Origin: Saprospiraceae bacterium
GTDB taxonomy: Bacteria > Bacteroidota > Bacteroidia > Chitinophagales > Saprospiraceae
NCBI GenBank assembly: GCA_013001595.1
Contig: JABDMH010000136.1
Coordinates: 1-64,000, forward strand
Direction: 5' to 3'
DNA: 64,000 nucleotides
Within the stretch, counting starts at the first letter, position 1, and every line of letters starts with the position of its first letter. Made by a program: the position numbers and the translations under genes. Positions 1,459 through 64,000 of the stretch are shown piece after piece. Below the pieces are notes generated by a model. It was not told the origin of the DNA. It saw only the letters and a program-made list of their open reading frames with translations, and ran no database searches.

Positions 1459-2820
1459 TTATGCAATCTCTGGTGTTTGTAGTTCGGCCAAAGAATTGCT
1501 AATTTCTGAGTCAGATAATTCGTGGCGCACTAATTTTCCGGCAAAGTAGTCTTCGTAGGCCTTCATGTCAAAGTTGCCATGACCACAAAGATTGAATAAT
1601 ATGGTCTCTCTGGAACCTTCGGCTTTACATCGCTCTACTTCTGCAAATACGGAGGCAATGGCGTGGTTTGCTTCTGGTGCAGGAATGATGCCCTCCGCTT
1701 TTGCAAAGGTGACACCTGCTGCAAAGGCCTCGAGTTGGTCATGAGCTTGTGCTTCAATTAGTTGGTCTTTGAGTAGCTGACTCACCATAACACCTGCACC
1801 ATGGTATCTCAATCCACCGGCATGTATCGGTGCTGGGATGAAGTTATGTCCCAAGGTATACATGGGCAGTAGTGGGGTCATGCCCACTGTATCACCAAAG
1901 TCATAGCGAAAGACGCCTCGGGTCAGTTTAGGACAAGAAGCAGGTTCACTGGCAACACAACGAATCTGTTTGCCTTCTTCCAGGTTGTAGCGTAAGAAAG
2001 GGAATGATAATCCAGCAAAGTTAGAGCCACCACCGAATGGAGCAATGACCACATCTGGCAACTCACCAGCCTTTTCCATCTGCAATACCGCTTCTTGACC
2101 TACAATGGTCTGATGCAAGAGGACATGGTTAAGTACGCTACCCAGCGAATATTTGGTGTGTTCGTCCATGGCAGCACGCTCAATCGCTTCTGAAATGGCA
2201 ATACCTAACGAACCAGGACTGTCAGGATCTGCTGCCAATATTTTTCTTCCCGCCTCTGTTTGGTCCGAGGGTGAAGGTATAACAGATGCGCCCCAGGTAT
2301 TCATCATCACTTTACGGTAAGGTTTATGATGGAAGCTGAGTTTGACCATATAAACCTCACACTCTATATTAAAGAGGTTGCAAGCAAAGCTAAGTGCACT
2401 TCCCCATTGGCCTGCACCAGTCTCGGTTGTAATTCGTTTGACTCCTTCTTCCTTATTGTAAAAAGCTTGTGCAACGGCTGTATTCGGTTTATGCGACCCA
2501 GAGGGTGAGCTTCCCTCATATTTGTAAAATATTTTTGCCGGAGAATCCAACACTTTTTCCAGTCCTCTGGCACGATATAAAGGAGTGGGACGCCAAATAC
2601 TGTAGATGTCTCTAACTTCGTCAGGAATTTCAATCCATTTCTCAGCGGATACCTCCTGCTTGATCAATTCCATGGGAAATAATGGGGCAAGTGCCTCAGG
2701 ACCAATTGGTTCCTTCGTGCCGGGATGCAGAGGAGGTAGTGGCTTGTTGGGCATATCGGCAGCAATGTTGTACCAGTTTTCAGGGATTTCCTTCTCTGAC
2801 AGCGTTATTTTTCTCGTCAT
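1459..2820 (-). CDS. trpB: Tryptophan synthase beta chain, TrpB2 type
   Basis: A 453-residue PLP enzyme that condenses indole and serine to tryptophan. The PLP lysine is K111 in [22 protein letters not shown] and the phosphate-binding GGGSN loop follow. The long N-terminal extension and the SGSHKPN context fit the TrpB2 class rather than the classic TrpB1. The ATG at 2820 was chosen because the family starts near MTRKITL; the upstream extension to 2898 shows no conservation. No trpA or other trp gene is adjacent, which is common for TrpB2, often a stand-alone salvage enzyme. Confidence 0.9.
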
Positions 2821-2947
2821 GTCTTTTTTGTGTTTAATTGAACTGGGGGAAGATAGGATATCGTTCGAATCCCACAAAATGTTTTTTGCTCTAAACAAAT
2901 AAGTACAAGACCATCAGAATGAATGGAAGTTGATATGACCGCAGAGC

Positions 2948-4027
2948 TTAGCGAATCAGGTGGACATTGCCAAAAAATCTTCTAGAAGCACCATCAATAT
3001 ATTCTACAACGGTCAGATAGGCAAAGGTACCCGTAGACAGCTGCCGTCCATCCGAGGAACCATCCCATCCTTCTTGTGCTAGACCAGGAGTTATGTCCTC
3101 TTTGCGAAATACCAATCTGCCATGACGATCATAAATGTTGAGAAACTTGATATTGACCATCGTTGCATCACCAAAAACGGTTAGGTAGTCGTTGTTTTGG
3201 TCTCCATTTGGACTAAATGCATTGGGTACGTAGGCAAATCTCTTGCGACCGAAAGTGGTGAGGACTACAGCTATTTCCTTCTCCGCAATACAACCATTTT
3301 CATCTTCCACTCTTACGCTATATGGAACAGTGCTTGAAGCCAAGTCGTTAATGGAGGAACAGTTGGTGCACAGGAGGCTGTCATTTTTAAACCACGAATA
3401 GGTCACGTTACGATCTGCTGGTGAATGATATGCCTGTAGCTCAACAATTTGAGGTTTCTCTATTAAGACGTCTTCTGATGTGCTAACACTTAGTAATCCG
3501 CAATCCATTTGGTCTAGGGTGTCACCCATAAGAGGTGAAAATGAGTTGATACAGATACCGAAATTACCTGCCTGGGTCATCTCACTGCCAACTTGAAGAT
3601 AGATGCGCTCACCTTTTCGGATATCCTGAATCCAATGAACTGCTGGACCGTGCTGCATAGTATTTTGACAGTCGATGAGCGTTAGATTTGCACAAGAACC
3701 TTTGTACAAGGCTGTAGCAAATTTCGTCAGACCATTTTGGTCATCGTCTTTGGAGGACGTCGCAATGAATAAGCTACTACCCGCTGCAACGAAAGTAAAC
3801 CAAACTTGAACATTGGCACCAGTCTGGCAAGTCATCTCCTGGTCACTGATGGCGGCCTCGACATTAGAAAAACTTCCTAAGTCAGAGCACCACCCACCTA
3901 TCGAAGTTACTTCTAATGCATTTATACAATCATCTTGCTCCATCTGTGCGGAAGAGATATATGGCACCAGCCATATACTAGCGATTGTAGCATAAAAAAT
4001 CGGAGTTCTGTCGGTCAATATTTTCAT
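2948..4027 (-). CDS. Secreted protein with type B gliding/T9SS C-terminal domain
   Basis: A 359-residue exported protein. A signal peptide covers about residues 1-27 and ends in SSAQ. The first half is a cysteine-containing beta-rich domain (DCINALEV, CQTGANVQVWFTF) like those that precede adhesin repeats. Next comes an Ig/PKD-like segment (YSWFKNDSLL, VEDENGC), then the hallmark CHU_C domain beginning YVPNAFSPNGDQNNDYL and ending GNVHLIR. This C-terminal domain directs type IX secretion and surface attachment in Bacteroidota. The natural ligand is unknown. It appears monocistronic. Confidence 0.88.
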   Translation of the reverse strand: MKILTDRTPIFYATIASIWLVPYISSAQMEQDDCINALEVTSIGGWCSDLGSFSNVEAAISDQEMTCQTGANVQVWFTFVAAGSSLFIATSSKDDDQNGLTKFATALYKGSCANLTLIDCQNTMQHGPAVHWIQDIRKGERIYLQVGSEMTQAGNFGICINSFSPLMGDTLDQMDCGLLSVSTSEDVLIEKPQIVELQAYHSPADRNVTYSWFKNDSLLCTNCSSINDLASSTVPYSVRVEDENGCIAEKEIAVVLTTFGRKRFAYVPNAFSPNGDQNNDYLTVFGDATMVNIKFLNIYDRHGRLVFRKEDITPGLAQEGWDGSSDGRQLSTGTFAYLTVVEYIDGASRRFFGNVHLIR

Positions 4028-52503: not shown

Positions 52504-54108
52504 ATGAAGCGACGAGATTTTATTAAAGTGTCTTCAGCCTCTGGGGTAGCAGGTATGGTAGGACCAGAGTACTTACCCCTGGCCAGTGGTTCCGTTGGAG
52601 AGGAGGATGGTTTTGATTTACATCCGTTCATCAAAGAACATCCTGAGGCTGTTTTCATAAATCGTACTCGGGTAAAGAAGATCACCAATGATAAAACCAT
52701 TTATAAGGCCGCAAATAAATTGGCTGGTGAGATGTTTGTGAAAAGTTCAAGTGAAAAAGGTTTTTCTAACAGTACAAAGGTTACCTGCAAGCCCAACTGG
52801 ACTTGCAATGGTGGACCCGAAATGGATCCTGAGGAAAAGCTAGGCATTACCACAGACATACACTTTGTAGAGGGATTTCTGAAAGGTGTCCAAACACTAG
52901 GGCCACAGCAGTTTTATCTACGGGAATGTGCTTGTCCGCAAAATTGGGAGGCCAATGGTTGGACAGCAATGGCAAAAAGGAATGGCTTTGATTTCAGAGA
53001 CCTTACCTCTAAAGATTATTGGAACCTTAGTGAGGATGATTTAATATTTCGAGATGTGCCTGATGGAGTAGTTTTCAATAAGGTTGCCTTCATGGCACCA
53101 ATGACGGCACCAGATACCTTTTTAATCAACATCGCCAAATTCAAGGCGCATATGATGGGCATAACTGGTGCCGTAAAGAACCTTCAGGGTATAACCGCAC
53201 GAAAATTTCATCAGTATTGTGGAGGGGTCTTTGATATTTTTAAATCCTACGATAAGCGGTATCATCAATTTTTTCATGCCGACTATATGGAGAAAATTAA
53301 GTCCTTACATGAGAGACATGTGGCTGAGGGGCTTCCACGTTGGAATGCCATTCCTATTGGTTCCTCATTTGGCGGAGGAGTATTTATGGAGCAATGGGTA
53401 CAAAGAATGCTTGATTCTTACAGTGTAACACCTACCGGTATTAATATGATCGAGGGTGTATACAGTTTAGATGGTAACGGATTTGGAAGTGGTCCACATA
53501 AAGGTAGGGGTAAAACCTACAAGTCCAACCAGGTGATCTTTGGCAAAGACGCTTTCCGAGTTGACATCATTGCGCACTGGTTGGCAGGTCATGAACCGGG
53601 TAACTTTGGCTTATTCCACATCGGTATTGAAAGAGGACTCTCAGACGTACTTAATCCATCTGACATTCCGCTATATCTATGGGAAGATGGAAAAGCCAAA
53701 AAAATTAAGTTGGACACTTTGAAAAGAACTCCGCTACTTACAAATTATCTCACGTTAGGTGATGAGGTTACCCATGAGGACAAATATCACTTATGTGATG
53801 AACCTTTTGACTATAGTGCCTGGAAGGGATTAGGCAATGTGAATCCCGTTGAAAGACCATCCATCCGAGCACTGGGCACAAATGCAAGGGACAATGTAGT
53901 TATGGAGGTGGCCGTGCCGGAGGAAGGCAATGTGTATATGGATATACTAAATAAGAAGGGCGAATTAGTTTGGCGGATGGAAGCTCCGGACCTGGAACCT
54001 GGCAAGCACGAGATGGTTTGGGATGGATTTTCTCAGCCCGGAATATATAACGTGTATGTCAAGGGAATGAATTGGGATGCTACTAGAGAAATGGTGATTT
54101 ACAGCTGA
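52504..54108 (+). CDS. Tat-exported DUF362 protein with FlgD-like C-terminal domain
   Basis: A 534-residue protein starting MKRRDFIKVSSASG, a twin-arginine-like leader. The DUF362 domain covers about 55-430 (TYKSNQVIFGKDAF, PDTFLINIAKFKAHMMGITG, VKNLQGITARKFHQYC). DUF362 proteins often carry iron-sulphur ferredoxin segments, but no such cysteine motif is visible here. The last 70 residues (YMDILNKKGELVWRMEAPDL) look like a FlgD-type Ig domain. Function unknown; periplasmic or secreted. Confidence 0.82.
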   Translation: MKRRDFIKVSSASGVAGMVGPEYLPLASGSVGEEDGFDLHPFIKEHPEAVFINRTRVKKITNDKTIYKAANKLAGEMFVKSSSEKGFSNSTKVTCKPNWTCNGGPEMDPEEKLGITTDIHFVEGFLKGVQTLGPQQFYLRECACPQNWEANGWTAMAKRNGFDFRDLTSKDYWNLSEDDLIFRDVPDGVVFNKVAFMAPMTAPDTFLINIAKFKAHMMGITGAVKNLQGITARKFHQYCGGVFDIFKSYDKRYHQFFHADYMEKIKSLHERHVAEGLPRWNAIPIGSSFGGGVFMEQWVQRMLDSYSVTPTGINMIEGVYSLDGNGFGSGPHKGRGKTYKSNQVIFGKDAFRVDIIAHWLAGHEPGNFGLFHIGIERGLSDVLNPSDIPLYLWEDGKAKKIKLDTLKRTPLLTNYLTLGDEVTHEDKYHLCDEPFDYSAWKGLGNVNPVERPSIRALGTNARDNVVMEVAVPEEGNVYMDILNKKGELVWRMEAPDLEPGKHEMVWDGFSQPGIYNVYVKGMNWDATREMVIYS

Positions 54109-54202: not shown

Positions 54203-55456
54203 CTATTCACCAAAAAGGGGTATCATATGCCGGTCCAGGAGATTTCCGGTGACCTTCTTACCAACGATCTCTTGATTTGCATTTAATGCCTCCAAATATC
54301 GATCACCGAGTTGGGCAGCAATTTTAAAACCTACATGCAGCAACTGACGTAGATCCTTATTATAAGCCGGATTTTTTTGGTCATGGGTTAAGGCAGCTAC
54401 ATATTGTTCGCTTGTCCACTGCTTTACCGCTTCCGCTGAGGGAAGGTTGGCGTCATCTATATCGATTACCGTCGCATAAGGTTCACAGAGGGCTGCCTTT
54501 TTATCCAATGCTTTTGCATAGATGTCCTTGGCGAGCTCCAGCGCGTCACCACCGGCTTCTGCCAAGCCGATCACTTCTTCCAACCAGTTGGTGCCGGCAG
54601 TCTTGATGTGTAAGCCTGCACCCGTCCGGGCCAATGCTTTTTTTATGGGCTCATAAATGGAGAATTTATCGGAGCCTGAGTGCACAGATAATTTAAGTCC
54701 TACCGGAAGTCCATAGGTACTGATGGCATGAGCGATCACAGCTAGATCGTCATTAAACTCCTTTTCAAATTGGGCAATATCACCAACATAGTCGACCCCC
54801 TTGTTGAACCGCCCGGTGAATTTTGGGGCTATTGTTTGGATGGGTATGCCTTGATCCGCGATCGCTGCAAGGATGATCAGCATCTCAGGAGGAGTTTGTG
54901 GGTTTTCGGTCTCGTCCATGGAGATCTCAGTAACAAAATCATCCACACCACCCTTTGCGTCAACAATGTGGTTGTAGATTAGCTTTGCTTTTTGGGTGGC
55001 TTTCAAAAATTGGTTGGCGGTCTTTCTGATATCTTCTTTGGTCAAGTTAAATGGTTGGTCAATACCCTTTACGGTGATGGTGCCGATTAGCTCGGGGTGT
55101 CGATCGATGAATGCATCTATTTCTAGGGTATCTGCTGCCTCCCCAATATCATCTGCCACATCCAGTGTAAAGAAATCACTTGGTGCTATAAACCGGTCCA
55201 CGGTGTCAAGATTGATGTGATCTGCATCAAGCAAGTAATCATTAGACCATCCAAGATCTGCAACAGCTTTGTCAGCAGCATCTCTGGTTTGCTGTGGCTG
55301 TGATCCAATGATGTCATGCTCACGGTTGGATTTGTTCCAGACCGGAACAATATCGATACCCAGCTCTTTGGCCGCTATGAAGGCTTTTAGTTGTGCATGA
55401 GCACTTTGAGCGAATCGATCACCAACGCCAAAGGTGAATTTAGGACATGTTTTCAT
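54203..55456 (-). CDS. uxaE: Tagaturonate/fructuronate epimerase, UxaE family
   Basis: A 417-residue enzyme. KFTFGVGDRFAQSAHAQL, PVWNKSNREHDIIGS, DADHINLDTVDRFI and SDFFTLDVADDIGEA are characteristic of UxaE, which interconverts D-tagaturonate and D-fructuronate in uronate breakdown, using a metal ion. KLSVHSGSDKFSIY and the C-terminal HVGFKIAAQLGDRY are also typical. No other uronate genes are adjacent. Confidence 0.85.
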   Translation of the reverse strand: MKTCPKFTFGVGDRFAQSAHAQLKAFIAAKELGIDIVPVWNKSNREHDIIGSQPQQTRDAADKAVADLGWSNDYLLDADHINLDTVDRFIAPSDFFTLDVADDIGEAADTLEIDAFIDRHPELIGTITVKGIDQPFNLTKEDIRKTANQFLKATQKAKLIYNHIVDAKGGVDDFVTEISMDETENPQTPPEMLIILAAIADQGIPIQTIAPKFTGRFNKGVDYVGDIAQFEKEFNDDLAVIAHAISTYGLPVGLKLSVHSGSDKFSIYEPIKKALARTGAGLHIKTAGTNWLEEVIGLAEAGGDALELAKDIYAKALDKKAALCEPYATVIDIDDANLPSAEAVKQWTSEQYVAALTHDQKNPAYNKDLRQLLHVGFKIAAQLGDRYLEALNANQEIVGKKVTGNLLDRHMIPLFGE

Positions 55457-55587: not shown

Positions 55588-56055
55588 CTACAAGAATTCT
55601 GTATTCAGATAGTTCCAAGCCTTGTCAAAATTAGCTGATCCTTCTTTACTCAATCCCATATTTAAGGACCAATCTTTGCCTTCAATCAGTAGCAAAAGCG
55701 CCTGAGGTGATTTCCGATAGAGGTCTTGACAGAGATGAAGAATGGACTCGGGAGGGATCTCGTGGGTACTGAATGCAAAAGATAGAGCCGGTTTACATAT
55801 TTGTACATCAAAGCCATCCTCAAGTAAGGTGCGGCAGGCGTCTACGAAAATCACCGTCTTATAGTGACTGATCACCTCAGCATCTTCCACTTGCAGTTGA
55901 TATCGAAAAATAGTATCTCCCCTATATAGACCGCTTTTTTCTAGTTTGTCTATCAGTGACCAACCCAAACCGTCATCTCCACGGCCGTTATTTCCTATAC
56001 CAACTAATAGGGTATGGTTATGATTTAAATCGTGTGTCAATGAGGTTGTCGGCAT
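55588..56055 (-). CDS. hoxW: [NiFe]-hydrogenase maturation protease
   Basis: About 155 residues. GIGNNGRGDDGLG with a metal-binding aspartate, the second segment YQLQVEDAEVI and VDACRTL fit the HycI/HyaD/HoxW endopeptidase family, which cuts the C-terminal extension of the large subunit after nickel insertion. It overlaps the end of hoxH by 38 bases from the ATG at 56055, so it is coupled to its substrate. An ATG at 56070 is also possible. Confidence 0.85.
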   Translation of the reverse strand: MPTTSLTHDLNHNHTLLVGIGNNGRGDDGLGWSLIDKLEKSGLYRGDTIFRYQLQVEDAEVISHYKTVIFVDACRTLLEDGFDVQICKPALSFAFSTHEIPPESILHLCQDLYRKSPQALLLLIEGKDWSLNMGLSKEGSANFDKAWNYLNTEFL

Positions 56056-57469
56056 GATCGAATAATTCAACTTTCAAAGGCATACTGCCCACTGCATGGG
56101 TTGCACAACTTAAGCATGGGTCATAGGCACGAATGGCAATCTCGATTTGATTTAACATGCCATCGGTGATCTCCTGTTGTTTGTCCAATACTTTTTTTGC
56201 CACCCACCGAACCGCTCGATTCATGGCTTCGTTGTTATGCGTTGTGGAGACGATCAAGTTGCATTTGACGATTTTCCCGTCATCATCAACCCGATAGTGA
56301 TGGATTAGTGTACCCCGTGGAGCTTCAATGATGCCAATGCCTTCTGGTCTTCGCTCTCCTTGGCGCATCAAGTCATCACCAAGAACGGTATCGTCGATTA
56401 ACAGTTCTTGCATCAGTTCGGCGCAATGCAACGTCTCGATTAACCTGGCCCAATGCGAATGCATGGTGCTGTTATTTGGATAACCACCCGTATAGGACTT
56501 GAACTCCTGAAGTTCTTTGTTGGCCAATGGAGTAGAGATGTATTCGCTGACGTTCAGTCTTGCCAGTGGACCCACTCTATTCCATCCTTTCTTTATTCCC
56601 AGTTCTTTTATATATGGGAATTTCATGTAAGACCACTTTTCTACCCCTTCATTGAAATAGTCAATGTACGTGTCATTTGGAATATCGTCCAGGGTTTTTT
56701 CCCCTTCACTATCAATGGCTCTCATGAAGCCATCATAAAGCTCCATACCCCCATCTTTGGTGACGAGACCCAAATGCCCGCTGGGATAATGCGCAAAGGA
56801 ATCCAACCAATCTTGATTTTTGCTGTGATAATCCTTGATGAATTGGACCATTTCCAAAGACCAATCTATCATGGTTTGCACACCAGGGATTTCCTCATCA
56901 TTGAGAAAAAATGCCCGCTCCGCCGGACTGAATGTTTTATGTACTCCGCCAGGAATGGCAGCTATCCCATGGATCCTTTTTCCTGTGATGGCTTTAATAA
57001 TCCGCTGGCCAAATTTGCGCATGAGTATGCCCTTGCGGGCCAATTCTTTGTTCTCTATAGCGACGGCAACAATGTTTCTCTGCTCTTTCGCAGCTTCCAG
57101 TCCAAATAGAAGGTCAGGTGAAGCGAGGTAAAAGAAATGCAGGGCATGAGATTGAAAGACTTGACCATAGTGCAGAAGCCGCCTCAATTTATCAGTGGTG
57201 GGTGATAGATCTGACGGGTCTACACCCACGATCTGATCCATTGCTTTAGCTGCTGCTAAGTGATGGCTCACGGGGCAAATGCCACATAGACGCTGCACCA
57301 ACATGGGTGCTTCCCAGTATGGATGTCCTTGGATAAATCGTTCAAATCCTCGAAACTCAACGATGTGAAAAAACGCATCCTTGACCGCACCCTCATCATC
57401 GAGATGCACAGTCACTCTGCCATGCCCTTCTACCCTAGTTACAGGGTCAATGATTACTTTATTAGTCAT
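56018..57469 (-). CDS. hoxH: [NiFe]-hydrogenase large subunit HoxH
   Basis: A 483-residue catalytic subunit. The nickel cysteines are C62 and C65 in RLCGICPVSHH and C452 and C455 in DPCLSCATH. A 25-residue extension after H458 is removed by the maturation protease. VTRVEGHGR is the usual L0-like start. Its neighbours identify it as group 3d (NAD-linked). It lies 9 bases after the hoxUY fusion. Confidence 0.94.
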   Translation of the reverse strand: MTNKVIIDPVTRVEGHGRVTVHLDDEGAVKDAFFHIVEFRGFERFIQGHPYWEAPMLVQRLCGICPVSHHLAAAKAMDQIVGVDPSDLSPTTDKLRRLLHYGQVFQSHALHFFYLASPDLLFGLEAAKEQRNIVAVAIENKELARKGILMRKFGQRIIKAITGKRIHGIAAIPGGVHKTFSPAERAFFLNDEEIPGVQTMIDWSLEMVQFIKDYHSKNQDWLDSFAHYPSGHLGLVTKDGGMELYDGFMRAIDSEGEKTLDDIPNDTYIDYFNEGVEKWSYMKFPYIKELGIKKGWNRVGPLARLNVSEYISTPLANKELQEFKSYTGGYPNNSTMHSHWARLIETLHCAELMQELLIDDTVLGDDLMRQGERRPEGIGIIEAPRGTLIHHYRVDDDGKIVKCNLIVSTTHNNEAMNRAVRWVAKKVLDKQQEITDGMLNQIEIAIRAYDPCLSCATHAVGSMPLKVELFDHADNLIDTRFKS

Positions 57470-57478
57470 ATCTATACC

Positions 57479-58765
57479 TTAATCATATTTAAATTCAGAA
57501 TATAACACCGAAAACTCATCGCCCCAAAGTAAATTTGAAACTGCTTTCCAGATGTGGTTGGCTGTGGGTGGGCATCCTGGTATGTGATGATCTATTTTCA
57601 CCAGTTCATGACAAGGGTATACTTTGTCTAGTATTTTGGGTAGATCTTCATGATAAGGAACTGTATTCTCCCCAGGCTCTGTTGTCATGGAGTTTAAATA
57701 GGCCTCTTCCAGGCATTCTTCCAATGGAACAGTGTTTCGCATAGCTGGCACACCGCCCCAGATAGCACATTCGCCAACAGATACTAAAAGCTTACATTTT
57801 TTCCTGAATTCTCTAAGTACTTCAATATTTTCTGCATTGCAGCATCCACCCTCAATTAGACCGACATCACATTGTTCGGTAAATTCCTTGATGTCGGTGA
57901 GGGGAGATTTGTTAAAATCTACCACTTTAATTATGTCTAGGAGTGCCAGGTCGACATCTAACAACGACATATGACAGCCAAAGCAGCCGGCAAGTGAAGT
58001 CGTTGCAATGATTTTTTTCGTTTTAGGTGACATGTCCTTTGGTAGGGGAGCAGCTGCCGAAGTTGACTTTTCAGATTTGTGAGCTGAAGTCTTATCGAAT
58101 CTCCGATCACCAAAAGGATGTGCAAAACTCTTTCCTTTGACCAGGATGGCACCAGTTGGGCATAGGTGCATGGCTGCAAATGCCTGTTCCTCGCTTAGAG
58201 TAGCTTCTTGCTCATAGTCAATACCTACAATGGTTTCGTTGCCCCGATTGCAGAAGGAAAACACGCGTTCTCCTGAATCGGAAAATACTTCCTCGACACA
58301 GCGGCGACACTTCACACAGCGGTTGTGCTCAATGAGCATTCTCTTAGGCGTAAAATCAATCAGGCGGTCTTTAAACAAGTGAGGAAATCGAGTGTGCGAA
58401 ATCCCCATTTCATAGCCCATGTGTTGCATGTCGCAGTCTCCACTTTTTTCACATGCCGGACAAAAGTGGTTGCCTTCTGCAAACATCATTTCTACGATCG
58501 CCTTTCGTGTATCAAGCAACTCTTCCGAATTCAACTCCACTTCCATACCATCATAAGTCTTCCTCGTACATGCGGGCATAGCATTGCCATTAATTTTGCA
58601 GACGCAGACTCTGCATGTACCTAGAGGAGGATCTATGTGTTTGTAATAGCATAGGGAAGGAATAAATATTTCATGTTCAGTAGCCACATCTACCAAGTTT
58701 AATCCTGGTTTAGTTTTGATGGCCTTTCCATCTATCTTAATGGTGATCTCGTTATTCATCGGCAA
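57479..58765 (-). CDS. hoxUY: Fused diaphorase subunit HoxU and hydrogenase small subunit HoxY
   Basis: A 428-residue fusion. Residues about 1-225 are HoxU: [2Fe-2S] cysteines near 39, 51, 54 and 66, an NuoG-type cluster with H100, C102, C105 and C111, and a ferredoxin-like cluster with NRCVKCRRCVEEV near 150-156 and CPTGAI near 202. A Ser/Lys/Ala-rich linker follows (about 216-250). Residues about 250-428 are HoxY, with the proximal cluster CFGC near 261, GEC near 331 and PGCPPT near 397. In Ralstonia and cyanobacteria HoxU and HoxY are separate; fusion fixes their contact in the electron chain. Confidence 0.9.
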   Translation of the reverse strand: MPMNNEITIKIDGKAIKTKPGLNLVDVATEHEIFIPSLCYYKHIDPPLGTCRVCVCKINGNAMPACTRKTYDGMEVELNSEELLDTRKAIVEMMFAEGNHFCPACEKSGDCDMQHMGYEMGISHTRFPHLFKDRLIDFTPKRMLIEHNRCVKCRRCVEEVFSDSGERVFSFCNRGNETIVGIDYEQEATLSEEQAFAAMHLCPTGAILVKGKSFAHPFGDRRFDKTSAHKSEKSTSAAAPLPKDMSPKTKKIIATTSLAGCFGCHMSLLDVDLALLDIIKVVDFNKSPLTDIKEFTEQCDVGLIEGGCCNAENIEVLREFRKKCKLLVSVGECAIWGGVPAMRNTVPLEECLEEAYLNSMTTEPGENTVPYHEDLPKILDKVYPCHELVKIDHHIPGCPPTANHIWKAVSNLLWGDEFSVLYSEFKYD

Positions 58766-58768
58766 TTG

Positions 58769-60505
58769 TTAGTCTTTAAATCTTTCGTAGGGTTGCAAGG
58801 CCTGCTCCATGTTGAATTTCATATTTAGCCCAGCACCGTTTTGATCTACTTTTTGTGCAAAGAATTCTGGAAATTTGTCGATGGCCATGGATAATGTATT
58901 TGTGGCAGCTTGCCCAAGTCCACACCGACTGGTCATACGCATAATCTCACCCCATCTTTTGATCTCTTCATAATCTGCCGGGTAGGCCAATCCATTGGCA
59001 ATTCTTATGAGTTTTCGCTCAATAATATAATTCCCAGCTCGGCAAGGAGTGCATACACCGCAGGATTCATGTTTGAAAAAAGCTGTAAAATTTTGGAGAA
59101 TACTTAGAATGTCTCGTTTTGAATTGAAAATCATAAACGAACCCCCACACTTGACATCCTCCATCGAAATACTCCTGTCAAATTCTGATTTTGATAGACA
59201 TACACCAGAGGGCCCGCTGATCTGTATATAATAAGGATCATCGGCCTGGCATTTATTTAGAATGTCTGATATTTTGGTTCCCCACTCTATTTCATAAATC
59301 CCAGGCAAGTGACAGTCGCCAGATATGCTCAATAATTTTGTTCCTGGTGAATTTTTGGTACCCGTTTTTAGAAAGTGTTGTGCTCCTAGCTCCACGACCC
59401 TTCCGACGGCACAAAGAGTCTCCACATTATTGATCAGTGTGGGTTGATTGAGAAATCCCCTCTCAGTGGGATAGAATTGCTTGGTCCGAGGTTCACCTCG
59501 TTTTCCTTCCATGGAATTCAATAAGGCCGTTTCTTCACCGCATACATATGATCCGGCACCTAGTTGGACCCGGATATCGAAGTCAAAACCAATGATTCCT
59601 GCCACAGATTTGCCCAGGAATCCGCGTTTATAAAAATCTTGGATGGTGGCTCTGAGGTGTTCCATCATCCAATAATATTCTGCACGCAAATAGATGATGC
59701 CTTCACGTGCACCCACCGCATATCCGGAAGCGATCATGCCTTCTAAAAGCAGCCCAGGATATTTATTCATAAGAACCCGATCCTTAAAGGTACCTGGTTC
59801 ACCTTCATCTGCATTGCACACCACATACTTCATCTCTGCCTTGATCGATCGGCATGCCTCCATCTTCAAACCCGTAGGGAAATAGGCGCCGCCCATCCCT
59901 TTGATAGAGGCTAATTTGACTTGTTCGATTACTCCTTCATCGCCCAAGTTTGCTAGTTTAAGGACAGCTCTTCCCTGATGGTATTCACGTATACAGATGC
60001 TTTTATCGATTGGGGGTGTATATCGCAGATGATCTGGGACATCGTCAGAAAGTGTATGGAGTGGTGTGCCTTTTTTAAGTTCGGCAACGATATGTTTTAC
60101 CTTAAGTGTCGTCAAATTGGTGAAGGGAAAGAAATTAATCAACGCCGCTGGTTCTTGGTCGCTTAAACCAATACAGGGCGTTTCAAATAGGCCAAATTTT
60201 CCGGAGGGATCAACCTGGCCCAAAGTCGCACCAGTTTCTCGTTCGAAGGCAGATTTGATACGTCTGTATCCTTTGCATTCAGATACAATACTGTTGTTAA
60301 TGTAAATGGTGAATTCTCCGGCAGACTGTCTTCTGAAGAAATGATAAAAAGAAATCACTCCTTCCAACTCAACAGTAGAGATTCCTAGATCTTTTGCGCA
60401 CTCTTTTACAAAAAGATCTGTCAAGTACCCATGCGATCTTTGAAAAGACCACAGAGCATCTAAAGTTTGTGTCCTATTCAAAATTGATAATTTTTTATGG
60501 CTCAA
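58769..60505 (-). CDS. hoxF: Diaphorase subunit HoxF with fused HoxE-like domain
   Basis: A 578-residue NADH-binding subunit. The first 165 residues are HoxE/NuoE-like but only two of the four [2Fe-2S] cysteines remain (SECKGY and TPCIGLSDQEP), the others being serine. The NuoF-like part has the NADH/FMN motifs GMGGAYFPTGLK, NADEGEPGTFKDR and GAGSYVCGEETAL, and [4Fe-4S] cysteines in CGVCTPCRAGN plus TSRCGLG. The same cysteine loss is, as I recall, seen in Ralstonia-type HoxF, so this looks like the group 3d form. It is the first gene of the hox operon. Confidence 0.92.
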   Translation of the reverse strand: MSHKKLSILNRTQTLDALWSFQRSHGYLTDLFVKECAKDLGISTVELEGVISFYHFFRRQSAGEFTIYINNSIVSECKGYRRIKSAFERETGATLGQVDPSGKFGLFETPCIGLSDQEPAALINFFPFTNLTTLKVKHIVAELKKGTPLHTLSDDVPDHLRYTPPIDKSICIREYHQGRAVLKLANLGDEGVIEQVKLASIKGMGGAYFPTGLKMEACRSIKAEMKYVVCNADEGEPGTFKDRVLMNKYPGLLLEGMIASGYAVGAREGIIYLRAEYYWMMEHLRATIQDFYKRGFLGKSVAGIIGFDFDIRVQLGAGSYVCGEETALLNSMEGKRGEPRTKQFYPTERGFLNQPTLINNVETLCAVGRVVELGAQHFLKTGTKNSPGTKLLSISGDCHLPGIYEIEWGTKISDILNKCQADDPYYIQISGPSGVCLSKSEFDRSISMEDVKCGGSFMIFNSKRDILSILQNFTAFFKHESCGVCTPCRAGNYIIERKLIRIANGLAYPADYEEIKRWGEIMRMTSRCGLGQAATNTLSMAIDKFPEFFAQKVDQNGAGLNMKFNMEQALQPYERFKD

Positions 60506-60540: not shown

Positions 60541-60676
60541 ATTGCATCAATGTAGTCCCCAAGGAATTAATTTACGTTGCTCCGGAACATCGAGATGAAT
60601 GATCTTGGTCATCCGAATTGCCACTTCGACACTGTAATTTCATCGCCGACTGTGAATGAGCTATTGTCATTTGGTT

Positions 60677-61018
60677 ATGCATGAATTGAGCATTGTGTTG
60701 AATATTTTGGAAATTGCCGAGCATCAGTTAAAAGAGCATGCAGGCAATAAGGTGGACGCAATCGAACTTGAAATAGGTACCATGGCAGGAATCGAAATGG
60801 ATGCATTTCATTTTGCATGGGATGCCGCCCTCCCTGGATCTGTCTTGGAACGATGCAAACTGACCATTCATTCGGTGGATGCCAAGGCGTTATGTAGTGA
60901 ATGCGGCTACATGTATAGGATGTTGGAACATTATATGGCTTGTCCAGCATGTGGAAGTTTTCGCAATTCGATGATCCAGGGAAAGGAATTAAAAGTCAAT
61001 TCACTCGAGATTATTTAA
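60677..61018 (+). CDS. hypA: Hydrogenase nickel-insertion protein HypA
   Basis: A 113-residue protein. The start at 60677 gives MHELSI, where histidine 2 is the nickel ligand, so the upstream ATG at 60656 is not used. The zinc site is formed by CSECG and CPACG. It delivers nickel to HoxH with HypB, which follows after 23 bases. Confidence 0.93.
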   Translation: MHELSIVLNILEIAEHQLKEHAGNKVDAIELEIGTMAGIEMDAFHFAWDAALPGSVLERCKLTIHSVDAKALCSECGYMYRMLEHYMACPACGSFRNSMIQGKELKVNSLEII

Positions 61019-61041: not shown

Positions 61042-61911
61042 ATGTGTAGTACTTGCGGATGTGGTCACGCAGATATGATCACCATTACCAAAATCGGCGA
61101 TGAGGAAAACCATGAGCATTTTTCATTACACGCTGAAGAAGCAGTCTCACATGCTCACCACCACCATCATCACGAGTCAGGCCAGGCGCATACACATCGT
61201 CATGTGCACGAAGATGGTACTGTAGCACATCATCACCATGAAGTACCAACTAGTAGGATCGTCGTTGATCTGGAGATGGATATTCTTCATAAAAATGATC
61301 TCATGGCTTCGCGAAATCGCGGCTATTTTGAAGCCTTGCAGATTGTAGCTCTAAACTTGGTGAGTTCACCAGGTTCTGGAAAAACCAGTTTACTTGAAAC
61401 AACACTGACTGCGCTCTCTTCTGAGGTAAATTGCCATGTTATTGAGGGTGATCAGCAGTCTTCAAATGATGCACAAAGAATTGCAGAGACTCAAGTGCCC
61501 GTTGTACAAATCAATACCGGTAAAGCCTGTCATCTCGATGCCCAGATGGTGCAGAAAGCCTATAAGCAGCTGTCACCGGAAAATCGTTCTATACTATTTA
61601 TAGAGAATGTTGGCAACTTGGTCTGCCCGGCCATGTTCGATCTAGGAGAATCAGCCAGAGTGGTGATTATTAGTGTGACCGAAGGAGACGATAAGCCTAT
61701 CAAATATCCGGATATGTTTCATTCCGCTGATATTTGTGTAATTAACAAAATAGACCTGCTTCCATACGTTCAATTTGACGTGGACAAGGTGAAGGAATAT
61801 GCACTTCGTGTCAATCCGAATCTGGAATTCTTTGAATTATCTGCAACAACTGGCGAAGGCATGGAGAGTTGGTATAAATGGTTGCATGACCGACTTCGCG
61901 ATGCACCATGA
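61042..61911 (+). CDS. hypB: Hydrogenase nickel-insertion GTPase HypB
   Basis: A 289-residue GTPase. MCSTCGCG is the high-affinity nickel motif; a histidine-rich stretch (about residues 35-70) probably stores nickel. The P-loop is SSPGSGKTSLLE, followed by EGDQQSSNDAQRI and NKIDLLPY (G4). It works with HypA. Its TGA overlaps the hypF ATG (ATGA). Confidence 0.94.
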   Translation: MCSTCGCGHADMITITKIGDEENHEHFSLHAEEAVSHAHHHHHHESGQAHTHRHVHEDGTVAHHHHEVPTSRIVVDLEMDILHKNDLMASRNRGYFEALQIVALNLVSSPGSGKTSLLETTLTALSSEVNCHVIEGDQQSSNDAQRIAETQVPVVQINTGKACHLDAQMVQKAYKQLSPENRSILFIENVGNLVCPAMFDLGESARVVIISVTEGDDKPIKYPDMFHSADICVINKIDLLPYVQFDVDKVKEYALRVNPNLEFFELSATTGEGMESWYKWLHDRLRDAP

Positions 61912-64000
61912 AGACTGTCCGAATACAAATGGAAGGACGGGTGCAGGGTGTGGGGTTTCGGCCATTTTCCTACAACTTGGCGGCTAGATATGATCTCAAG
62001 GGAATCATTAGAAACAGCATGTTTGGTGTTGAATTCTTGTTGACAGGGACAGCGGATAAACTCAATGAATTCTACAATACACTCGTAAATCATCCACCCG
62101 AGAAAGCAATTGTAAATAAACACAGCATTAGTAATGTAGAATATCAACCATTCAATTCCCTACGGATCAAAATGAGTAGTGAAAGTGGACATCCCAGACT
62201 AACCATGACACCAGATATTGCGACTTGTAAAGCTTGTTTGGAGGAAGTTCATGGCAGGGATGACCGACGAGCTGATTATGCATTTACTTCCTGCGAGCAA
62301 TGTGGGCCTAGGTATAGCATTCTCAATAAACTACCATTCGATCGATCGAGCACTAGCATGGAAGCATTTCTGCTTTGTGATGAATGCCAGAATGAATACG
62401 AAGATCCATCTGATCGACGCTATTATGCACAGACCAACTCTTGCCCTCAATGTGGAATAGCAATGAACCTGTACGGGAATATCTCCTTAGCATCAAGCTC
62501 AAGGCCTACAGACATATATGGATGTATAATTAGAGCACTACACAGCGGAGAGTTGGTGGCTGTCAAAGGCATCGGAGGATATTTACTATTGGCTGATGCT
62601 ACCTCAATGAAAGCGATCAAGGCCTTGCGAGAAAAGAAGCATCGTCCGCATAAACCATTTGCCCTCTTGTACCATAATGTCGAAGAATTGGATAAGGACG
62701 TATACTATAGCAAACTGGAGTTGCAAGAATGGCATTCCGATGCAGCTCCCATTGTGCTCTTCCGTCGGAAAGAATATCCAGCAAACCCAATTCAAACAGC
62801 ATTGATCGCTCCTGGATTAAGTGATCTGGGCATCATGCGACCGTATGCACCTATTCTAGAGATTATTTCTTCGCGATTTGGAAAACCATTGGTGGCTACC
62901 AGTGCTAATGAGGTTGATGCACCAATCATTTGTCAGGATGAAATGGCAAGGGAGCAGCTGGCAGATATTGCTGATCTTATTGTGGCAAATAATCGACGCA
63001 TCACCATACCGCAGGATGATAGTGTTGTGCTAATTACACCCAAATTTGGACAAAGAATATTATTGCGCAGATCTAGAGGCCTGGCGCCATCTTTAAATTG
63101 GATCCCAGGCTTCGTAGGGGAAAATGAGATTCTGTGTATGGGTGCATTGCTCAAAAGTACGTTTGCCATACAATGCCATGGCAATATCTACCTAAGTCAA
63201 TACTTGGGAAATACCCTTTATCTGGAAACTCAGGATAACTATTTACAAGTCTTGAATCATCTGCTGGAAATGTTACATTGTCAGCCAAACCTGATTGTGG
63301 TGGATCAACACCCGGAATATTTTACGACTATATTGGGAAAGCGAGTGGCTGATTCGTTCGGAGCTACCTTGCTTCAAGTCCAGCATCACAAGGCCCACTT
63401 TGCTGCCGTCCTGGCTGAACATAATTATTTAAATAGCAAAGAAAACATTTTGGGGGTAATTTGGGATGGTACGGGATATGGAGAGGATGGGTGCATTTGG
63501 GGTGGTGAATTCTTTACCTGTGAAAATGGTGAGATCATCCGCACTGATCACTTTAGTTACTTTGATCAATTACTTGGCGACAAGATGGTCAAAGAACCTA
63601 GATTAAGTGCACTATCAGTCCTTTACCATGTGTCATTTGCCAAGGGTCATTTGCAACCATATTTTACAGACCAGGAGTGGGATTTATATAACAAATTGTT
63701 GTCGCAGGATCAAATTCTGCAGACCTCCAGTGTGGGAAGGATATTTGATGCAATAGCATTTCTGTTGGGCATTTGTGAGAAGCCGACCTATGAAGGTGAA
63801 GCTGCGGTGAGGTTACAGACGATGGCCGAACAATTTGACCAAACGCAAGAGGAGATAGAGCCGTATCCATTAACATCACCGGACACGCAACAGATCGCTC
63901 AATATGTCCTTAGCGATATTAAAAATGACGTACCAAAGCCTGCTATTGCCTATAGGTTTCATTTGACCTTAACGGAGCTCATTGGGTATATTGCAAGGCA
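61908..64000 (+). CDS. hypF: Carbamoyltransferase HypF (cut by window end)
   Basis: About 697 residues are visible of roughly 750; the reading frame is open at the window edge. The acylphosphatase domain has MEGRVQGVGFRPF; two zinc-finger pairs follow (CKACLEEV with CEQCGP, CDECQNEY with CPQCG); then a YrdC-like domain (VAVKGIGGYLLLADA, RPYAPI, ATSANEVDAP) and a Kae1/TobZ-like domain (HHKAHFAAVLAEH). HypF makes the thiocarboxamide precursor of the CN ligands with HypE. Confidence 0.93.
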   Translation, partial: MKTVRIQMEGRVQGVGFRPFSYNLAARYDLKGIIRNSMFGVEFLLTGTADKLNEFYNTLVNHPPEKAIVNKHSISNVEYQPFNSLRIKMSSESGHPRLTMTPDIATCKACLEEVHGRDDRRADYAFTSCEQCGPRYSILNKLPFDRSSTSMEAFLLCDECQNEYEDPSDRRYYAQTNSCPQCGIAMNLYGNISLASSSRPTDIYGCIIRALHSGELVAVKGIGGYLLLADATSMKAIKALREKKHRPHKPFALLYHNVEELDKDVYYSKLELQEWHSDAAPIVLFRRKEYPANPIQTALIAPGLSDLGIMRPYAPILEIISSRFGKPLVATSANEVDAPIICQDEMAREQLADIADLIVANNRRITIPQDDSVVLITPKFGQRILLRRSRGLAPSLNWIPGFVGENEILCMGALLKSTFAIQCHGNIYLSQYLGNTLYLETQDNYLQVLNHLLEMLHCQPNLIVVDQHPEYFTTILGKRVADSFGATLLQVQHHKAHFAAVLAEHNYLNSKENILGVIWDGTGYGEDGCIWGGEFFTCENGEIIRTDHFSYFDQLLGDKMVKEPRLSALSVLYHVSFAKGHLQPYFTDQEWDLYNKLLSQDQILQTSSVGRIFDAIAFLLGICEKPTYEGEAAVRLQTMAEQFDQTQEEIEPYPLTSPDTQQIAQYVLSDIKNDVPKPAIAYRFHLTLTELIGYIAR

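Follow-up and report, generated by a model that had tools for sequence, protein, structure and literature searches.

The window, by which we mean the whole stretch of 64,000 nucleotides analysed here, carries on its minus strand, read from 60505 to 55588, the genes hoxF, a fused hoxUY, hoxH and a maturation protease (hoxW). The protease reading frame and the end of hoxH overlap; Pfam gave no match for the protease at E 0.001, and no NCBIfam HoxH model reaches its cut-off for the window's HoxH. The HoxH residues continue past the last CxxC motif and the protease frame adjoins, such that a C-terminal extension and a protease of its own are present, with the cleavage itself predicted. On the opposite strand lie hypA, hypB and hypF, and hypC, hypD and hypE come after hypF, beyond the end of the window, giving a complete hypABFCDE set beside the hox operon. 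The assignments of hypF, hypC, hypD and hypE rest on TIGR00143, TIGR00074, TIGR00075 and TIGR02124, each over its cut-off, and HypD is additionally supported by PF01924.

Table 1 Positions of the hox and hyp features in the window.
Feature	Position	Strand	Basis or remark
Fused hoxU-hoxY gene	57479-58765	-	Single ORF of 428 aa, stop-free inside
HoxU half	58094-58765	-	Residues 1-224 of the 428-aa frame; Pfam and 5xf9_B match
Joint	58007-58093	-	Residues 225-253, 29 aa
HoxY half, [NiFe]-hydrogenase small subunit	57482-58006	-	Residues 254-428; Oxidored_q6 and 5xf9_C match
hoxF, NAD-/FMN-binding diaphorase subunit with NuoE-like and NuoF-like parts	58769-60505	-	2Fe-2S_thioredx, Complex1_51K, NADH_4Fe-4S (Pfam)
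hoxH, NiFe catalytic subunit	56018-57469	-	NiFeSe_Hases (Pfam)
hoxW-like maturation protease	55588-56070	-	TIGR00072, 65.4 bits (cut-off 47.45)
hypA, divergent from the hox operon	60656-61018	+	HypA PF01155; TIGR00100 over cut-off
hypB	61042-61911	+	TIGR00073, 288.9 bits (cut-off 121.2)
hypF	61908-64000	+	Continues to contig position 64223

After the hox operon and on the same strand, a UxaE-like gene (tagaturonate epimerase family, 54203-55456) has no evident connection to hydrogen metabolism; it is adjoined by a gene for a 534-residue DUF362-domain protein (52504-54108, plus strand). A second HoxH C-terminal piece was found on contig C78 of G000 (L203, 3717 bases; 2767-3706, minus strand), with 92% identity to the HoxH of the window across 169 residues, and the contig also holds a reading frame resembling the window's protease, broken off at the contig end. 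This HoxH piece is a paralogue, a strain variant or a contaminant contig.

The fused frame opens with a TTG codon at 58765. The ATG at 58759, which would give 426 residues, is the likelier start, because the alignments of many relatives begin at about query residue 3. Pfam places Fer2_4, NADH-G_4Fe-4S_3 and Fer4_Nqo3 in residues 5-207 and Oxidored_q6 in residues 261-411, and a search of solved structures matched residues 8-226 to 5xf9_B (E 1.2e-37) and residues 241-428 to 5xf9_C (E 2.2e-53), which are chains of the same NAD-reducing hydrogenase. The NCBIfam HoxU equivalog NF005745 scores the fused protein at 170 bits, under its cut-off of 333. An AlphaFold monomer model (pLDDT 75.4, pTM 0.55) does not settle the packing of the two halves; Foldseek matched them separately, to 5xf9_B/F and 5xf9_C, and alignments of more than 400 columns gave an rmsd of approximately 17-25 Å and are hence meaningless. 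An earlier reading made from the sequence only had claimed that HoxU and HoxY form one chain, which the reading frame, the Pfam domains and the 5xf9_B and 5xf9_C matches bear out. Its linker of about 35 residues was an overestimate, as the joint between conserved landmarks measures 29 residues.

The same reading had stated that the cluster cysteines were retained, and this holds across the 69 fused loci collected. The HoxU half keeps C39, C51, C54, C66, C102, C105, C111, C150, C153, C156 and C202, with a single alignment gap at C39, and the HoxY half keeps C261, C264, C333 and C398, with one gap at C398. Following established knowledge of NuoG and HoxU, we take the former to bind one [2Fe-2S] and two [4Fe-4S] clusters, and the latter presumably bind one [4Fe-4S] cluster, as is established for the small subunit. 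The histidine of the second HoxU site (H98, A1 numbering) is invariant in 56 sequences. In the partner subunits, the [4Fe-4S] site of HoxF (C482, C485, C488 and C528) occurs in 56/56 fused loci with full-length HoxF, and both CxxC motifs of HoxH (C62, C65, C452 and C455) in 63/63 with full-length HoxH. The NuoE-like part of HoxF probably lacks a [2Fe-2S] cluster, since C111 is the only one of its cysteines common to the fused loci. We also observed a Cys-Cys pair, C308-C309, in the EGGCCNAEN loop of HoxY (window 57838-57844), which is no classical ligand site. It is absent from distant relatives, and was rejected as a fusion-specific feature because its two cysteines occur in 63 and 61, respectively, of 64 near split relatives, which is more often than among the 69 fused loci (56 and 47).

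The joint was delimited by the landmarks R-x-[FY]-D at the end of HoxU and [AG]T-x-SLAGC at the start of HoxY. Its length falls between 24 and 31 residues in all 69 fused loci, with 26 residues in 25 loci and 25 residues in 20. Mean pairwise identity among these loci is 0.196 for the joint, 0.621 for HoxU and 0.703 for HoxY, and residues 229-240 are one of the three stretches to which the AlphaFold model gives a pLDDT under 50. Constrained length with a variable sequence is what a flexible tether would show, and the joint is best read as such, presumably with no role in electron transfer.

When 84,980 species genomes were scanned, at least 586 encoding stretches emerged, of which the best 80 were kept, a set biased towards full-length single alignments. 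Judged by reading frames, 56 of these 80 are fused (L033-L088, with L077 and L079 broken by contig ends) and 24 are split (L089-L112). The sequence-only reading had implied that the fusion is rare; in a large clade it is instead the norm. Lutibacter, Winogradskyella, Maribacter, Pontibacter, Ginsengibacter and Lutimonas each contribute named isolates, and the names of the fused loci cover Flavobacteriia, Chitinophagia, Cytophagia, Saprospiria, Bacteroidia, Balneolia, Rhodothermia, Chlorobiota and one Acidobacteria bin, which places the fused clade in Bacteroidota, Balneolota, Rhodothermota and Chlorobiota, plus that bin. Loci whose HoxY frame repeated an earlier one were dropped before counting. 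In each of the 69 different fused loci, the window's counted in, the joint is read through without a stop, and the fusion is therefore confirmed as genuine, beyond chance or error.

It had been proposed that the fusion be sought in other Bacteroidota, and the fused gene was indeed found in many related genomes, at full length in 12 of the 60 genomes that the search of relatives covered, the window's own among them. No split near relative was seen in that search, the other listed matches being to the HoxU half only. Three of five same-genus genomes have no full-length match, all three of them drafts of 86-91% completeness, and the hox operon is patchy among relatives. A species-specific fusion was considered and rejected, as the fused gene recurs across genomes of relatives and species scans.

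Within the window's phylum, 119 of 395 genomes have a HoxY-half match at E ≤ 1e-10, in most cases with distant hydrogenases; at 53% identity or more there are eight genomes, seven fused (own included) and one split. The search of G452's phylum covered the window's phylum again, with 5 of 6 matches at the same contig places, and is not independent. The phylum of the Acidobacteria bin gave matches at E ≤ 1e-50 in 31 of 297 genomes, one of them fused; in the phylum of a Spirochaetales bin, 29 of 198 genomes match, none of them fused. For these 60 matches the joint was read in 40 loci plus G542 and G1098, and the other 18 (10 and 8) were scored by their open frames, none longer than 236 residues. 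Several loci depart from the usual arrangement. Winogradskyella alexanderae (L061, 1469-9307) has a tandem hoxF-hoxUY-hoxF-hoxUY followed by one hoxH, a partial operon duplication, and two Lutibacter loci (L054, 1199-4979; L058, 1186-4971) have two successive hoxF-like genes before one hoxUY. In a Flammeovirgaceae bin (L043, 6248-7707), HoxH is split over two overlapping frames of 183 and 364 residues, which is either a frameshift or an assembly error.

HoxH and HoxF are proteins separate from the fused gene, and can therefore act as independent judges of the fusion's history. HoxH rows under approximately 440 matched residues were dropped (143 left), followed by near-copies (119 left). In the resulting 119-row tree, built with a quick method, the 57 fused rows make up one side of a branch with an SH-aLRT of 99 and a single change of state suffices; a long-branch warning applies to the outer rows, Cupriavidus necator included. 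A mixture-model HoxH tree of 53 rows, with every second row dropped and outermost, plasmid and distant small-subunit rows excluded, placed 29/29 fused rows in one clade (100/100). The HoxF tree (70 rows, quick method) likewise has 47 fused rows in one clade with a support of 100. The window's locus belongs to this fused clade, characterised by a one-frame HoxU-HoxY with a joint of 24-31 residues, by its joint, its HoxH and its HoxF.

A single, ancient origin of the fusion seems to account for the sampled tree, and several independent fusions are not needed to explain this sample on either HoxH or HoxF. The direction would be a gain of the fusion, given that the outer rows, among them C. necator, Lichenicola and Acaryochloris, have split genes; none of the 57 fused rows of the HoxH tree has gone back to separate genes. 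G542, with an open frame of 478 residues, was considered as a second origin and rejected, as it proved split when the joint was read (L192), and the same reading of the joint removed G676, G506 and G1098 (frames of about 300 residues) from the fused candidates. The fused Acidobacteria bin (G451/L062) is, on its HoxH, which sits among Flavobacteriaceae, a case of transfer or mis-binning and not a separate origin.

A comparison with split relatives suggests how the joint came about. In 57 of these, the HoxU tail and HoxY head, measured to the landmarks used above, together span 14-33 residues, most commonly 17, and the fused joint is some 8-9 residues longer than these summed free ends. When stops and spacer are counted as codons, 36 same-frame split relatives have 21-50 codons between the landmarks (median 24.5), and the 28 with a single stop have 21-28 (median 24). 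The fusion was probably created when a hoxU lying in frame with hoxY, a few codons away, lost its stop codon, a simple origin because translation of a single-stop spacer gives nearly the observed joint length at once. A Met is retained at the split-HoxY start position in 8 of the 69 fused loci. In all 24 split loci of the best-80 set the two genes share a frame, but the search ranks single tblastn segments and favours same-frame loci. Less biased samples gave 5/17, 7/18 and 0/5, about one third and thus at chance level, and a same-frame rule among split relatives was rejected on these grounds. With same-frame pairs no more frequent there than chance would give, stop loss counts as the simplest route and no more.

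The window most likely encodes an ordinary group 3d enzyme with three structural chains, HoxF, HoxUY and HoxH. A HoxF-type diaphorase with a 51K FMN/NAD domain and a [4Fe-4S] site, a HoxU-type iron-sulfur subunit (by 5xf9_B and Pfam, with the NF005745 cut-off unreached), a HoxY small subunit with four cluster cysteines and a HoxH with two CxxC motifs are all present. The HoxH joins the C. necator and Lichenicola rows in the starred 106-row set of the 119-row tree, which contains no reference rows from other hydrogenase groups. By homology, electrons would pass between NAD(H), the FMN of HoxF, the HoxU clusters, the HoxY [4Fe-4S] cluster and the NiFe site of HoxH, and the predicted catalysis is H2-dependent NAD(P)+ reduction. 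The joint would tie together two subunits that are adjacent along this path, at the boundary between diaphorase and hydrogenase.

On balance we favour, with more confidence than doubt, a cytoplasmic NAD(P)-linked HoxFUYH group 3d [NiFe] hydrogenase in which the HoxUY tether blocks parting of the modules at the U-Y contact, and which goes back to a single stop-loss origin. The tether would fix the F-U diaphorase and the Y-H hydrogenase at 1:1 and make them inseparable at that contact, and the covalent link would leave no orphan, superoxide-forming diaphorase; the fusion would have been kept after arising in an ancestor. Any benefit, such as the lack of such an orphan diaphorase, is presumptive, as are the effects on stability or O2 response that the sequence-only reading suggested. 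According to the abstract of PMC3189943, isolated C. necator HoxFU is active, and most reactive oxygen formation by the C. necator enzyme is attributed to it. That the fusion became fixed in a Bacteroidota-centred ancestor by stopping superoxide formation by an orphan diaphorase, or by keeping NiFe wired to NADH for reactivation after O2, is a tentative and rather doubtful proposal.

Fixation might have had no such cause. A neutral fusion, in which one stop loss drifted to fixation with nothing important changed, and which presupposes subunits already assembling side by side at 1:1, is possible, if on the unlikely side. It agrees with the identical operon order and ligands of split relatives and with the barely conserved joint sequence, but sits less easily with the complete absence of reversals among 57 fused rows and a joint length held at 24-31 residues. 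Neither of these proves a benefit, because reverting needs both a new stop and a new start.

We regard it as very improbable that HoxUY is accompanied by free HoxY from an internal start, or is cleaved after synthesis, so that the mature enzyme would be fused in appearance only. The Met found exactly at the split-HoxY start in eight fused loci would suit an internal start, as would a nearby Met within the window's joint, but 61/69 fused loci have no Met at that position. Shine-Dalgarno-like tetramers precede the HoxY start in 12/69 fused versus 44/59 split loci (5 of 64 split loci left out), a comparison that says little because HoxH starts in the fused genomes have them in just 6/59. The probability that a sequencing or assembly error erased a stop and a start is negligible: the source of the window is a draft assembly of 161 contigs, but 69 different loci have the open joint, and 12 of the 60 genomes in the relatives search, the window's own counted in, carry the fused gene. 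For the clade, error is refuted by this recurrence in independent genomes, several of them named isolates, which also excludes the missed stop that the sequence-only reading had seen as a threat. That reading had further allowed for the fusion proving common and already described; common it is, with no description found in the open-access literature searched.

Among the open-access matches listed, no title or opening of an abstract names a HoxU-HoxY fusion, subscription papers and preprints lying outside this scope. The term 'HoxUY' in the available text of PMC1904212 was dismissed as an earlier description, being part of plasmid names such as HoxUYH, and PMC2974642 contains neither 'fused' nor 'fusion'. 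The kind of enzyme is already well known, and the fused form is a variant thereof. If our reading is correct, the clade has a three-chain soluble hydrogenase throughout, with no release of free diaphorase, unlike the cyanobacterial enzyme. In cyanobacteria, a role of its own for the free Hox diaphorase is an open question (excerpts of PMC7363133), for which a clade with modules inseparable at the U-Y contact would be a ready natural comparison. The fused enzyme may also offer a ready-joined scaffold for NADH-recycling biocatalysis, where complexes are suspected to lose integrity on purification (PMC12809855, in part), and the fusion can serve as an easily scored marker of one branch of group 3d hydrogenases.

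Among characterised enzymes, both halves match the HoxU and HoxY chains of Hydrogenophilus thermoluteolus HoxFUYH (PDB 5XF9/5XFA), which likewise lacks HoxE and HoxI (PMC7363133, in the part available); there, HoxU (242 residues) and HoxY (189 residues) are separate chains, unlike in the window. HoxFUYHI2 of C. necator H16 (pHG1) shares the gene order hoxF-U-Y-H-protease-hypA-hypB-hypF and 46.2% identity over 99% of the fused query, but has separate hoxU and hoxY with a 4-base overlap in different frames, and a cyclic-nucleotide-binding-domain gene between the protease gene and hypA. The cyanobacterial HoxEFUYH has homologous subunits (Acaryochloris, 31.1% identity over 95% of the fused query) with HoxU and HoxY separate and HoxE as its own gene; a separate HoxE with a [2Fe-2S] cluster was not encountered in the window's operon, where a NuoE-like part is fused into HoxF. 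The Synechocystis HoxEFUYH readily falls apart into HoxEFU and HoxYH, as stated in the consulted part of PMC7363133.

The nearest split relatives are the enzymes of Bacteroidales, Aminicenantes and Spirochaetes bins (L089-L112), with HoxY 56-64% identical, the same operon and frequently a single stop between the two genes; their HoxU tail is of a PIGS(E/D) type, which the fused clade lacks. NiFe-HydABCSL (PDB 7T2R/7T30) is homologous in the N-terminal part of HydA and in its small subunit, but is electron-bifurcating, with a larger HydA (692 residues) and a separate small subunit (from the accessible sections of PMC8880783).
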